Of a stretch of DNA of 64,000 bases, positions 2,329 to 51,082 are shown piece by piece. The notes below the pieces were generated by a model. The model saw nothing but the letters and a program-made list of their open reading frames with translations. It searched no databases and was not told where the DNA came from. The position numbers and the translations under genes were made by a program. The DNA is from Mesorhizobium qingshengii (GTDB lineage Bacteria; Pseudomonadota; Alphaproteobacteria; Rhizobiales; Rhizobiaceae), in NCBI RefSeq assembly GCF_027563465.1, contig NZ_JAPFQA010000002.1, positions 806,001 to 870,000 on the forward strand, in the 5' to 3' direction. How positions within the stretch are numbered: the stretch's first letter is position 1; every line of letters starts with the position of its first letter.

Positions 2329-3396
2329 TCATAGCGGCAGGCCTGTCGCCTTGTCGAACAGATGGATGTTGCCGGGATCAACGGTCACCGGCAGTGAGTC
2401 GCCCGGCCTGACCTGCACCCTGTCGCGGAACACCGCGCGCACCGTATCGGCGCCAATGGCGCCATAGACATGGGTTTCGGAGCCGGTCGGCTCGACGACA
2501 TCCACCTTGATCGCCATCGCGTCGACAGCCTCGCCGATGACGAAGTGTTCGGGCCGGATGCCGGCTTCCACCTCACTGCCTGCCGGCACCGTCTTGCCGA
2601 CAAGCGCAAGCCGGCCGCCGCCGGCCGATTCGAACCAGGTTTTCTCAGGCGATGTCTTGAGGGCTCCGGAAACGAAACTCATCGACGGCGAGCCGAGGAA
2701 GCTGGCGACGAATTTGTTGGCCGGCCGGTCATAGAGTTCCAGCGGCGCCCCGACCTGCTGGATCCTGCCGCGGTCCATCACCACGATACGGTCGGCCATG
2801 GTCATGGCTTCGATCTGGTCGTGGGTGACGTAGACGATCGTCGACTTGAGCCGCTGGTGCAGCGCCTTGATCTCGACGCGCATCTGCACGCGCAGTTGCG
2901 CGTCGAGGTTGGACAGGGGCTCGTCGAACAGGAACACCGACGGCTCGCGCACGATGGCGCGGCCCATGGCGACGCGCTGGCGCTGGCCACCGGACAGCTG
3001 GCGGGGGTAGCGGTCGAGATAGGAGAAGAGATTGAGGACGCCCGACGCCTTCTTGACCTTCTGGTCGATGGCGGCGCGCGCTTCACCACGGATCTTCGGG
3101 CCAAAGCCGATGTTGTCCGACGCCTTCAGGTGCGGAAACAGCGCATAGGACTGGAACACCATGGCGATGTTGCGCTGCTGCGGCGGCAGTTCGTTGGCGC
3201 GCACGCCGCCTATCAGCAGGTCGCCGGAGGTGATTGTCTCCAGACCGGCCAGCATGCGCAGCAAGGTCGACTTGCCGCAGCCGGATGGCCCGACCAGAAC
3301 GACGAACTCGCCGCTCTTGATGTCGAGGCGGATGTTCTCGAGGATCTTGTGCTGCCCGAACGATTTCGACAGGTCGCGGAACTCGACGTCGGTCAT
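2329..3396 (-). CDS. ABC transporter ATP-binding protein, MalK/UgpC type
   Basis: A 355-residue ATPase of the carbohydrate importer (CUT1) class. Walker A is GPSGCGKST (about 37-45), the signature is LSGGQRQRVAMGRA, Walker B is VFLFDEPLSNLD, and the H-loop is YVTHDQ. A C-terminal TOBE/OB regulatory domain follows from about 235. The ATG at 3396 starts 2 bp after the dehydrogenase stop, and its ribosome site GGGAGCG lies in the end of that gene. A longer frame back to 3639 is only overlap with the dehydrogenase. It should energise the divergently encoded binding protein and permeases at 4353-7369, which have no ATPase of their own. Confidence 0.93.
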   Translation of the reverse strand: MTDVEFRDLSKSFGQHKILENIRLDIKSGEFVVLVGPSGCGKSTLLRMLAGLETITSGDLLIGGVRANELPPQQRNIAMVFQSYALFPHLKASDNIGFGPKIRGEARAAIDQKVKKASGVLNLFSYLDRYPRQLSGGQRQRVAMGRAIVREPSVFLFDEPLSNLDAQLRVQMRVEIKALHQRLKSTIVYVTHDQIEAMTMADRIVVMDRGRIQQVGAPLELYDRPANKFVASFLGSPSMSFVSGALKTSPEKTWFESAGGGRLALVGKTVPAGSEVEAGIRPEHFVIGEAVDAMAIKVDVVEPTGSETHVYGAIGADTVRAVFRDRVQVRPGDSLPVTVDPGNIHLFDKATGLPL

Positions 3397-48101: not shown

Positions 48102-49463
48102 ATGCGGAATTACGGGGGTCTTGTTCACGCGGTTGGCGGTTTCGCCAGACATCGCGGTGGAAATTTCGCGGTCCTGTTCGGCCTTGCCGCGTCGGTCTTG
48201 TCGCTGGGTGTTGGCTTTTCCGTCAACGTATCACAGCTCTACAATGCCAGATCGAGCCTGCAGGGCGTGGTCGACGCCGCCGTGACCTCGACGGCGCGTG
48301 ATCTGACGACCGGCGTCATCAAGGAAGCCGATGCCAACAAATCGGTGCAGGCCTTTCTCGATGCCAACAGCCAGGCAGGCATCCTGCAGGCCGGCCAGAT
48401 CGTGCTGGACAAGCTGACGCTCGACAAGAACGCCAAGACGGTCCAGGCGGACGTCCATGTCGATGTCGCCTTGTTCTTCCCGATTCTTGGCATGGGCGAC
48501 ATGAAACGCGTCGCCGCCTCGACGACGGCGCTCTATTCGGACAAGACCATCGAAGTGGCGATGATGCTCGACGTGACCGGCTCGATGGCGGGTCAGAAGA
48601 TCAAGGATCTGAAGGCGGCGGCGAGCAATGCGGTGGACAGTTTCCTGGGCAACCAGGATCCGACCAGGCCCAGGGTGCGGGTTTCCATCGTGCCTTACGC
48701 CAATTCGGTCAATGCGGATGCTCTCGCCGACAGCACAGTCTATGTCGAAACCAAAGCGAGCCAGCGCAAACAGGCGCCCGGCAACACGAGTGCACAGCCT
48801 GCTTCGGCCTCGCCGCGCCCTGACAATTGCGCCACCGAACGCAAGGGCGCCGACCAGTATTCGGACGCGGGTCCTGGCTCGAGCATGGTCAATCGCGACT
48901 ACCTGCTGTCGAGCTTTGCCGCAAACACCCGGACCGCCGCCTGCCCGGCCGCCGCACTCGTCCCGTTGACGGCCGACGCCAGCGCACTCAAGAACGTCAT
49001 CAAGGATTTTGTCGCGTCGGGCGGGACAGCCGGCCATATCGGCGTGCAATGGACCTGGTACATGCTGTCGGAAAGCTGGGGCAGCGTGATGAAAGCCTCG
49101 GAACGGCCCGCCAGGATGGATCCGAAGAAAGTCGCCAAATATGCGATCCTGATGACGGATGGCGAATTCAACCTGTCCTATTTCGACGCCAACACTGTCG
49201 GCGAGGTCTACAACGACGCCGGCAAGGAACCGACCCGCGCGGCGGCAAAGAAGCTCTGCGCTGCCATGCGTGACAAAGGCATCGAAATCTTCACCATCGG
49301 CTTCAATCTCGAAGAGGCAAATGCCGAGGCGACGCTGCAGGATTGCGCCAGCGCGGACAGCGTCTCGATCAAGCATTTCTATCAGGCTGCCAACGGTGCC
49401 GAACTGGACAGCGCGTTTCAGACGATTGCCCGTAACATCGAAACCCTGGCGCTGACCAAGTAG
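48102..49463 (+). CDS. TadG-like pilus assembly protein with vWA domain
   Basis: A 453-residue protein. Residues about 17-40 form one N-terminal membrane helix (GGNFAVLFGLAASVLSLGVG), typical of TadE/TadG pseudopilin-type starts. A von Willebrand A domain from about 150 has the MIDAS-like DVTGSMAG and a later MTDGEF. A low-complexity loop (about 225-255) interrupts it. TadG proteins act in Flp pilus assembly or surface adhesion, but no other tad gene is nearby, so this is an orphan copy. It ends just before a bidirectional terminator. Confidence 0.85.
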   Translation: MRNYGGLVHAVGGFARHRGGNFAVLFGLAASVLSLGVGFSVNVSQLYNARSSLQGVVDAAVTSTARDLTTGVIKEADANKSVQAFLDANSQAGILQAGQIVLDKLTLDKNAKTVQADVHVDVALFFPILGMGDMKRVAASTTALYSDKTIEVAMMLDVTGSMAGQKIKDLKAAASNAVDSFLGNQDPTRPRVRVSIVPYANSVNADALADSTVYVETKASQRKQAPGNTSAQPASASPRPDNCATERKGADQYSDAGPGSSMVNRDYLLSSFAANTRTAACPAAALVPLTADASALKNVIKDFVASGGTAGHIGVQWTWYMLSESWGSVMKASERPARMDPKKVAKYAILMTDGEFNLSYFDANTVGEVYNDAGKEPTRAAAKKLCAAMRDKGIEIFTIGFNLEEANAEATLQDCASADSVSIKHFYQAANGAELDSAFQTIARNIETLALTK

Positions 49464-49474
49464 TCCAAACGGAA

Positions 49475-49507
49475 AAGGCCGCCGCTTCTTTCGAAGCCGG
49501 CGGCCTT
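49475..49507. terminator. Bidirectional terminator
   Basis: AAGGCCGCCG (49475-49484) pairs with 49498-49507, and CTTC/GAAG extends the stem to a TTTC loop with one bulged base. On the minus strand it is followed by TTTTCCGTTT, so it ends the small peptide unit; on the plus strand it lies 12 bp after the TadG-like stop. Confidence 0.8.
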
Positions 49508-49540
49508 CCGTGTTTCCGTCCGTGGCGCGGCCCTGGCGGC

Positions 49541-49560
49541 GACCTAGGAGGTCACCCGCC
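49541..49560 (-). promoter_or_regulatory. Anti-SD-like element in small peptide transcript
   Basis: The minus strand reads ACCTCCT at 49546-49552, complementary to AGGAGGT in the ribosome site of the 23-codon ORF upstream. It lies in a GC-rich hairpin region (GACCT-CCT-AGGTC). It could sequester the ribosome site in cis or act on other mRNAs. Confidence 0.35.
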
Positions 49561-49574
49561 GCGCATCTCGCGCC

Positions 49575-49646
49575 TTAACGGGAAGACTGCTTCCCGAAAG
49601 TGCAATCCGCTGAGGCCACGTTCTGGAAAACGAAATCACTCGACAT
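49575..49646 (-). CDS. 23-codon peptide ORF with full-length Shine-Dalgarno
   Basis: On the minus strand an ATG at 49646 opens 23 codons ending in TAA (49575-49577). The peptide starts MSSDFVFQNVASADC and has one Cys (residue 15) and a basic tail KQSSR. The 15 bases GAAAGGAGGTGATCC before it are fully complementary to the 16S rRNA 3' tail, with 7 nt between AGGAGG and ATG. A perfect hairpin, CGGGAAG-loop-CTTCCCG (49579-49596), covers its last codons. A GC-rich hairpin and a strong terminator follow. I know no family with this sequence. It could be a small protein, a leader peptide, or a dual-function small RNA. Confidence 0.5.
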   Translation of the reverse strand: MSSDFVFQNVASADCTFGKQSSR

Positions 49647-49813
49647 CGGATCACCTCCTTTCGATTTGTTGAACACGCACAGATGATGGGGTCTCATTTG
49701 GAAAATGACAAGGCGTCACCTTCAAAAAGCCGGGTGGTGTGTCTTTCCAGACGGGCCGGCTTGCAGTTCAGGGGCAAAGAGACAACATTGTTGCACTCGC
49801 TTCGGGAGGAAGC

Positions 49814-51082
49814 ATGGACGCCACCGACAAGGCCGCGCGGATCGTCCGAACGGTCGTTGAGACGCTGAAGCCGGGCTTTGCGGTCAAGCTGTGGACCGGC
49901 GAGCGGATTGGCCCCGCCACCGGCCCGGTGCTCACCATCAACGACCAGGATATTGCCTGGCAGATCATTCGCCGCCCCTCCTTCTCGACGCTGATCGAGA
50001 TGTGGATCTCCAAGGCGGTCGATATCGAAGACGGATCACTGTTTGATTTCTACGCCCTGCCTTCGCAAGGCAAGCTCAGGTCGAAACTCAAGGCATTGCC
50101 GAAACTGGCGATCCTGCGCGACTTGCCCGCCGTTCTGTTTTCGAGAAAGCAGATGACAACGCGGGTCGATCTTGCCGGACGAAACCCTTTCGTCAGCGGA
50201 TCGAGCAAGGAGGCGATCCAGCACCACTATGACATCTCGAACGCCTTCTACCGGCTCTTCCTCGACGAACGCATGGTCTACAGCTGCGGTTACTTCAAGG
50301 ATTTCGCCAACGGCATCGATGAGGCGCAGGCCGACAAGCTCGACCACATCTGCCGCAAGCTGCGGCTGAGGCCCGGTGAAAGATTGCTCGACATAGGCTG
50401 CGGCTGGGGAGCGATGCTGATCCATGCCGCGAAAAATTATGGCGTCACCGGCCACGGCGTCTCGCTGTCTGAAGCCCAGACGAAACTTGCCCGTGAGCGC
50501 ATTCGCGCCGAGGGGCTGGAGGACAAGATCACCATCGAGATAAAATCCTATGCCGAGCTCACTGGCACGTTCGACAAGATATCGTCGATCGGCATGTTCG
50601 AGCATCTGGGGCTCGCCAACCATGCCGCCTACTTTTCCGCCGTCCACCGGCTGCTGAAGCCAGGCGGCATCTATCTGCATCACGCCATCACCAGGCGCAG
50701 CAAGGGCGACATGAAGAAGACCCTGCGCAAGGGGCCGGAATACAAGGCGCTGATCAAATACATCTTCCCCGGCGGTGAACTCGACACGATCGGCATGACG
50801 CTCGGCAATCTCGAAGCGCACGGCTTCCTCGTCCACGATGTCGAGAATCTGCGCGAGCATTATGCGCGCACCTGCAGGCTGTGGGCCGAGCGCCTTCATG
50901 CACAATTCGACGAGGCGATTGCCGAGGTCGGCGAGGCCAAGGCGCGTCTGTGGCTGCTCTACCTGACCGGCTGTTCGATCACCTTCGAACGCGCATCGGC
51001 GCAGATTTTCCAGACTGTCGCCACCAGGCGCGCGCGTGGCCCGAGCGGCCTGCCGCCGACGCGGGCCGACCTCTATCGGTAG
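49814..51082 (+). CDS. Cyclopropane-fatty-acyl-phospholipid synthase family protein
   Basis: A 422-residue SAM-dependent enzyme that adds a methylene bridge to unsaturated phospholipid acyl chains. The SAM loop is LLDIGCGWGAMLIHAAKNYG, preceded by EAIQHHYDISNAFYRLFLDERMVYSCGYF and followed by SSIGMFEHLG, all CFA synthase hallmarks. ATG 49814 follows GGGAGGAAGC; the frame before it lacks homology. Its stop lies one base before the convergent MOSC stop. Rhizobia often have two such genes. Confidence 0.93.
   Translation: MDATDKAARIVRTVVETLKPGFAVKLWTGERIGPATGPVLTINDQDIAWQIIRRPSFSTLIEMWISKAVDIEDGSLFDFYALPSQGKLRSKLKALPKLAILRDLPAVLFSRKQMTTRVDLAGRNPFVSGSSKEAIQHHYDISNAFYRLFLDERMVYSCGYFKDFANGIDEAQADKLDHICRKLRLRPGERLLDIGCGWGAMLIHAAKNYGVTGHGVSLSEAQTKLARERIRAEGLEDKITIEIKSYAELTGTFDKISSIGMFEHLGLANHAAYFSAVHRLLKPGGIYLHHAITRRSKGDMKKTLRKGPEYKALIKYIFPGGELDTIGMTLGNLEAHGFLVHDVENLREHYARTCRLWAERLHAQFDEAIAEVGEAKARLWLLYLTGCSITFERASAQIFQTVATRRARGPSGLPPTRADLYR

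Follow-up and report, generated by a model that had tools for sequence, protein, structure and literature searches.

A Mesorhizobium locus that very probably encodes an extended Shine-Dalgarno small mRNA, with an ORF apparently selected for length and not for content

We analyzed a 64,000-nucleotide stretch of Mesorhizobium qingshengii DNA, referred to below as the window. Sequence inspection of its minus strand revealed a compact unit comprising a Shine-Dalgarno (SD) sequence, a 23-codon open reading frame (ORF), a hairpin at the ORF end, a second hairpin, and a terminator-like fold, positioned behind a sigma-70-like promoter. The features of the unit and its two neighboring genes, which were named by reading their translations, are as follows:

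49711-49683, minus strand: promoter-like site TTGTCA-17-CATCAT, the one site found by the promoter scan on this strand (mean in shuffled sequences, 0.0)
49662-49648, minus strand: 15-nt extended SD, GAAAGGAGGTGATCC, from inspection and the 16S tail of a same-family genome
49575..49646, minus strand: ORF of 23 codons plus stop (TAA at 49577-49575), peptide MSSDFVFQNVASADCTFGKQSSR
49630..49639, minus strand: 5' arm of the long-range helix P1, GTGATTTCGT (codons 3-6)
49596-49579, minus strand: ORF-end hairpin CGGGAAG-CAGT-CTTCCCG, a perfect 7 bp, one base before the stop
49560-49535, minus strand: post-ORF (second) hairpin, with ACCTCCT on its loop side
49552-49546, minus strand: ACCTCCT, inside the post-ORF hairpin
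49510..49519, minus strand: 3' arm of P1, ACGGAAACAC, directly before the terminator
49507-49473, minus strand: terminator-like stem-loop followed by TTTT, from inspection and RNAalifold
48102-49463, plus strand: convergent vWA/Tad-like gene
within ORF 49739-51082, plus strand: divergent cyclopropane-synthase-like gene

The 23-codon frame is contained in a longer listed ORF (49575-49697). Transcription would be expected to start near 49676-49670, and the match to the Rfam CC2171 model, discussed below, starts at 49670. An initial description of the locus (hereafter, the first-pass annotation) had reported a perfect 15-nt SD, a 23-codon ORF with a perfect hairpin at its end, and an ACCTCCT element, and each of these was recovered. 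It had also reported a strong terminator; a stem-loop with a T-run indeed lies at 49507-49473, but the automated terminator scan returned 0 terminators, so this fold is absent from its list.

Compared with the 16S 3' end read in a same-family genome, CTGGATCACCTCCTTTCT, the 15-mer is complementary at every base. It ends one base before the ATG at 49646-49644, leaving a GGAGG-to-ATG spacing of 7 nt. Its 14-nt core, AAAGGAGGTGATCC, has a single copy in the 6.51 Mb assembly, the one in the unit; given the lack of a second copy, the genome's own 16S ends must be missing from its assembly. We rejected the idea that the element is a 16S artefact, since the SD is followed by NRTG whereas the 16S complement has AGCC. 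Similarly, Rfam gave no rRNA match over threshold in the window, its sole match there being a distant tRNA. Measured against the same-family 16S reference, the complementarity spans 15 nt in the window versus 17 nt in Bradyrhizobium loci (e.g., L099). The predicted unpaired probability in the window was 0.42 for the GGAGG, 0.98 for the ATG, and 0.19 for ORF nucleotides 4-18, and the GGAGG averaged 0.29 over 82 members of the family; a freely exposed SD is thus not predicted.

The first-pass annotation had proposed a conservation check among Mesorhizobium genomes, and the outcome was clear: the unit DNA matched in its own genome and in 59 of 60 other genomes of the genus. Of 40 other genomes of the order, 17 also matched, mostly over the SD and start only. 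Across the class, the exact pattern AAAGGAGGTGATCCNRTG was present in 59 of 385 genomes, one copy each, with 0 matches to the reversed control among those listed. In a phylum-wide sample it matched 66 of 398 genomes, all of them Alphaproteobacteria; counted from the listing, the class contributed 135 of the 398 genomes, and none of the 263 others matched. Both prevalences are lower bounds, as one-SD-base variants and TTG starts exist. For example, L293 and L294 combine an extended SD with a TTG start and were missed by the RTG pattern. A relaxed pattern (up to 2 mismatches) matched 134 of 151 family genomes, but its reversed control also matched, so it was not used as a measure of prevalence.

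A scan of named species genomes, whose pattern required a CAAC that the 385-genome scan did not, yielded at least 119 loci, most with alphaproteobacterial titles. The matches listed included Mesorhizobium, Bradyrhizobium, Methylobacterium, Bosea, Brevundimonas, Sphingomonas, Novosphingobium, Rhodobacteraceae, Azospirillum, and Roseomonas. Most loci read CAAC, then a few bases, then GAAAGGAGGTGATCC, a single base, and RTGTC. Three exceptions, by the labels of their metagenome-assembled genomes (MAGs), were assigned to Phycisphaerales (L070), a beta proteobacterium (L113), and Nitrosomonadales (L133), and may represent either misbinned contigs or transfer; P1 pairing is strong in L113 and L133. 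One genome carries both an 18-aa Sphingomonad unit (L198) and another unit that resembles CC2171, its SD being slightly shorter and its ORF 24 codons long (L289, G112 C1 805054-805305). An ArfB-like gene (ribosome-rescue factor, named by reading its translation) lies within 1.5 kb of the unit in 8 of the at least 119 loci, in Rhodobacteraceae such as L076. At L046, Rfam places a tmRNA gene at 2721-3018, 1.2 kb from the unit; ARAGORN listed none among the 60 loci on which it was run, including L046, whose tmRNA gene is truncated at the end of the locus.

To examine the ORF, we used 113 members with dissimilar ORF starts, picked irrespective of ORF length. In 106 of them the in-frame ORF spans 12-36 codons (quartiles 22, 24, and 26), compared with 41 and 30 in the other two frames and 42.8 ± 5.0 (maximum 57) in base-shuffled sequences. 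These comparisons indicate that ORF length, approximately 24 codons, is selected across the class. The stop codon itself varies (TGA in 73 members, TAA in 24, TAG in 16), and small trees of four groups gave 7, 6, 7, and 3 stop-to-stop changes, a total of 23 that is biased because ORF length or peptide end had served as the criterion for forming the groups. ORFs of 55-59 codons occur in several Azospirillum- and Geminicoccaceae-like loci (L036, L120, L161, L180, L206, L207, L054, and L089), where the translation of the grown ORF suggests a secreted peptide bearing a signal sequence.

A selected ORF length is what one would expect if the unit were an mRNA that serves to make a functional 23-aa protein, strongly translated through its SD, and the peptide is near-constant within Mesorhizobium. 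A 23-aa peptide of Sinorhizobium meliloti, SEP1 (pI 4.18), had the highest translation efficiency among non-annotated sORFs in the part of the report available to us (PMC10117765). Four 23-aa members (L254, L259, L263, and L264) have pI values of 4.05 to 4.56, making SEP1 a lead to a possible relative, drawn from length and pI. The content of the ORF, however, speaks against a small protein. Between orders the peptides are unrelated, and three of them matched 0 families in Pfam and NCBIfam. Within groups of equal ORF length, variability at the first, second, and third codon positions was 0.054/0.052/0.027 in 50 Mesorhizobium-type members, 0.221/0.232/0.140 in 24 Sphingomonad members, 0.182/0.182/0.187 in 11 Rhodobacter-type members, and 0.022/0.089/0.056 in 6 Bradyrhizobium members. 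Synonymous to non-synonymous minor codons numbered 9:25, 9:55, 12:43, and 2:4, respectively. The synonymous bias that the first-pass annotation suggested looking for is therefore not apparent: non-synonymous changes abound, the three larger groups show no excess of third-position change, and we see no purifying selection at the protein level. Moreover, nucleotide motifs persist where the frame shifts. In most of 46 aligned members the ORF-end motif GGAGCAG[CT]CTC encodes EQP- or KQS-like ends, but in L159, L245, and L262 it is read in a shifted frame as WSSL or RSSL followed by an immediate stop; in Brevundimonas, loci L111 and L170 differ by an inserted base, with compensation following within approximately five codons. 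Because third positions carry no excess and RNA motifs are kept across shifted frames, a functional peptide, one of the options offered by the first-pass annotation, appears disfavored, and we regard it as an unlikely explanation of the unit.

In the long-range helix P1, codons 3-6 of the ORF are paired to the segment preceding the terminator. Over 82 dissimilar members the native arms gave -20.96 kcal/mol versus -16.18 kcal/mol for swapped arms (Wilcoxon p = 9e-14), and 23 of the 82 ranked in the best 5%; two control segments, ORF nucleotides 31-60 (p = 0.13) and the DNA after the terminator (p = 0.78), gave no such signal. In an alignment of 46 Rhizobiales-type sequences, changes on both sides were seen in 10 of 10 P1 pairs and in 6 of 7 pairs of the ORF-end hairpin. 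The cells of the two helices were paired in 79.1% of cases (P1, 75.3%; hairpin, 84.5%), as against 70.1 ± 1.0% in shuffled and at most 50.5% in slid controls. P1 was drawn from the first sequence of the alignment, a majority of sequences leave two of the ten P1 pairs unformed (29 and 25 of 46), and RNAalifold, given the same alignment, predicted the hairpin and the terminator but not P1. Overall, the alignment indicates that P1 and the ORF-end hairpin covary, with compensatory changes. Evolution seems to have preserved the fold of the RNA and a brief act of translation rather than the peptide.

We therefore consider it reasonably probable, as an account of the whole, that the unit is an extended-SD small mRNA governed by the ribosome through capture of the 30S subunit and a short translation round; the ribosome-governed mechanism taken by itself is a tentative proposal. 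In it, the long SD-antiSD helix, extending to one base short of the start codon, would hold a 30S subunit. Before the 3' end is made, or upon successful initiation, the ribosome would make the short peptide and open P1. A peptide of approximately 24 residues fits inside the ribosome exit tunnel, and so this one may be too short to leave it and would be a by-product. The 3' arm of P1 is transcribed last, and on the finished RNA P1 would close the ORF start and hinder further rounds, until initiation and a short elongation reopen it. Translation, or a waiting 30S subunit, could thus set both the lifetime and the fold of the RNA, and an RNA whose fate depends on initiation would report initiation capacity. 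The small mRNA rreB reportedly binds 30S subunits strongly, shows weak, ribosome-dependent translation, and is stabler as an RNA without its start codon, and these findings fit the proposed mechanism. More speculatively, we can envisage a class-wide regulatory mRNA, with an SD of 15-17 nt and a content-free ORF of approximately 24 codons that opens a long-range helix, serving to gauge ribosome or initiation capacity, although at this breadth the idea is more doubtful than not.

A 15-nt complementarity to the 16S tail, together with the strong 30S binding reported for rreB, would also suit an RNA that titrates ribosomes, sequestering free 30S subunits in bulk as a decoy or storage form. Such an RNA would have no need of an ORF of fixed length, yet length is selected, and the unit is present in single copy behind a normal-looking promoter; bulk titration is quite improbable.

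The first-pass annotation further proposed that ACCTCCT, through pairing with ribosome-binding sites, controls the RNA itself or other mRNAs. As a trans-acting base-pairing sRNA, the unit would block other mRNAs through this CU-rich loop, with or without self-control. The window does contain the element, but it occurs in only 1 of 56 distinct Mesorhizobium-type post-ORF segments, that of the window itself. As a loop sequence private to the genome, it is unlikely to be the means of control. A consistent pre-terminator anti-SD was found only in the Rhodobacteraceae type, in 9 of 12 loci (the 12 being L076, L077, L080, L082, L092, L106, L116, L124, L137, L139, L190, and L191), where the duplex with the SD reached -14.6 versus -9.5 in shuffled sequences. 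Other groups have no comparable anti-SD, with duplexes of -8.7 to -10.6 versus -8.9 to -9.5 in shuffled sequences. We thus hold a trans-acting sRNA that works through this loop to be very unlikely. A matching change is seen in L292, whose SD is GGAGGTGC and whose 3' element is GCACCTCC. Lastly, the short ORF, hairpins, and terminator look attenuator-like, but a cis leader or attenuator of a neighboring gene is contradicted by the gene order in the window, where the next downstream gene (48102-49463) lies on the opposite strand, and the largest neighbor cluster comprises 19 of the at least 119 loci; we rejected this reading as extremely improbable.

Returning to the ribosome-governed small mRNA, the first-pass suggestion of a small mRNA or dual-function RNA pointed to the right area, as the unit is conserved and self-contained, with a selected ORF and a structured RNA, but its anti-SD control was not supported. 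The unit combines a very long SD, found once in the genome, with an ORF selected for length and apparently not for content, and so opens "translation without a wanted product" to direct testing.

The claim that the unit is unlike any known family is not supported: its relatives fit the rreB/rreR type, and the Rfam model CC2171 (RF01867) matched it over its full length with 35.3 bits (E = 3.2e-6). As the gathering score of the model is 75, the unit is a sub-threshold relative of CC2171 and not a member by Rfam's rule. In its own genome the model matches the unit locus alone. Among whole control genomes it matched 1 of 14 (Caulobacter vibrioides), and in the class it matched 26 of 142 genomes at E ≤ 0.001, 5 of them over the cut-off, which 8 of 20 hand-chosen relatives also passed. 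Second CC2171 matches at L291 and L296 contained no SD unit on reading and look like chance. Like CC2171, the window unit has the same 5' end, an extended SD, and a terminator, and a helix between the start of the ORF and the segment ahead of the terminator is supported in the window's family as well, though not by the RNAalifold prediction. The two differ in their middle part and ORF, and Rfam classes CC2171 as an sRNA. Our search of the available literature returned no paper linking CC2171 with Caulobacter and none pairing GGAGGUGAUCC with "small protein", and the available portions of PMC4842269, PMC5082802, and PMC12218461 hold nothing on the unit. In the available passage of a Caulobacter ribosome profiling study, most intergenic ncRNA regions were untranslated, and two formerly predicted ncRNAs, unnamed there, were translated (Schrader et al. 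2014, PMC4117421).

Extended pairing is also known from Staphylococcus aureus, where, according to the part of the report available, SD-antiSD pairing that extends towards the start codon restrains initiation and is used at approximately 30% of initiation sites (PMC13009471). The pairing in the window likewise runs towards the start codon and may restrain initiation, but whereas the S. aureus feature concerns approximately 30% of initiation sites, the 14-nt core occurs only once in the window's genome.

The closest likeness is to rreB and rreR, with which the window unit shares an extended SD and a short ORF, and its promoter-like site and terminator fold would fit a stand-alone transcript of this type. 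These are said to be small mRNAs with an SD of approximately 15-17 nt, a short ORF, and a terminator, transcribed as stand-alone RNAs of approximately 165-200 nt from their own promoter, and the search that found them reportedly used a threshold of at least 16 nt of complementarity. With 15 nt, the window falls one short of that cut-off; it further differs in having 15 and not 17 nt, ATG in place of GTG, an ORF of 23 codons, and a peptide unrelated to theirs. The relatives in Bradyrhizobium, which have 14 codons, a GTG start, and 17-nt complementarity, agree with what is reported for rreB and rreR, as do those of Rhodobacteraceae (18 codons). Judging from these shared sequence features, the unit very probably represents, in Mesorhizobium, the extended-SD small mRNAs of the rreB/rreR type that occur in alphaproteobacteria and of which Rfam CC2171 covers a subset. 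This kind of RNA has already been described (Hahn et al. 2017, RNA Biol 14:1353-1363, doi 10.1080/15476286.2016.1256534); new here are P1, the covarying ORF-end hairpin, ORF selection for length and not content, and the private nature of ACCTCCT. The analysis thereby links entries that had stood separately, namely the CC2171 sRNA, rreB, rreR, and the Sphingomonad and Rhizobiales units.
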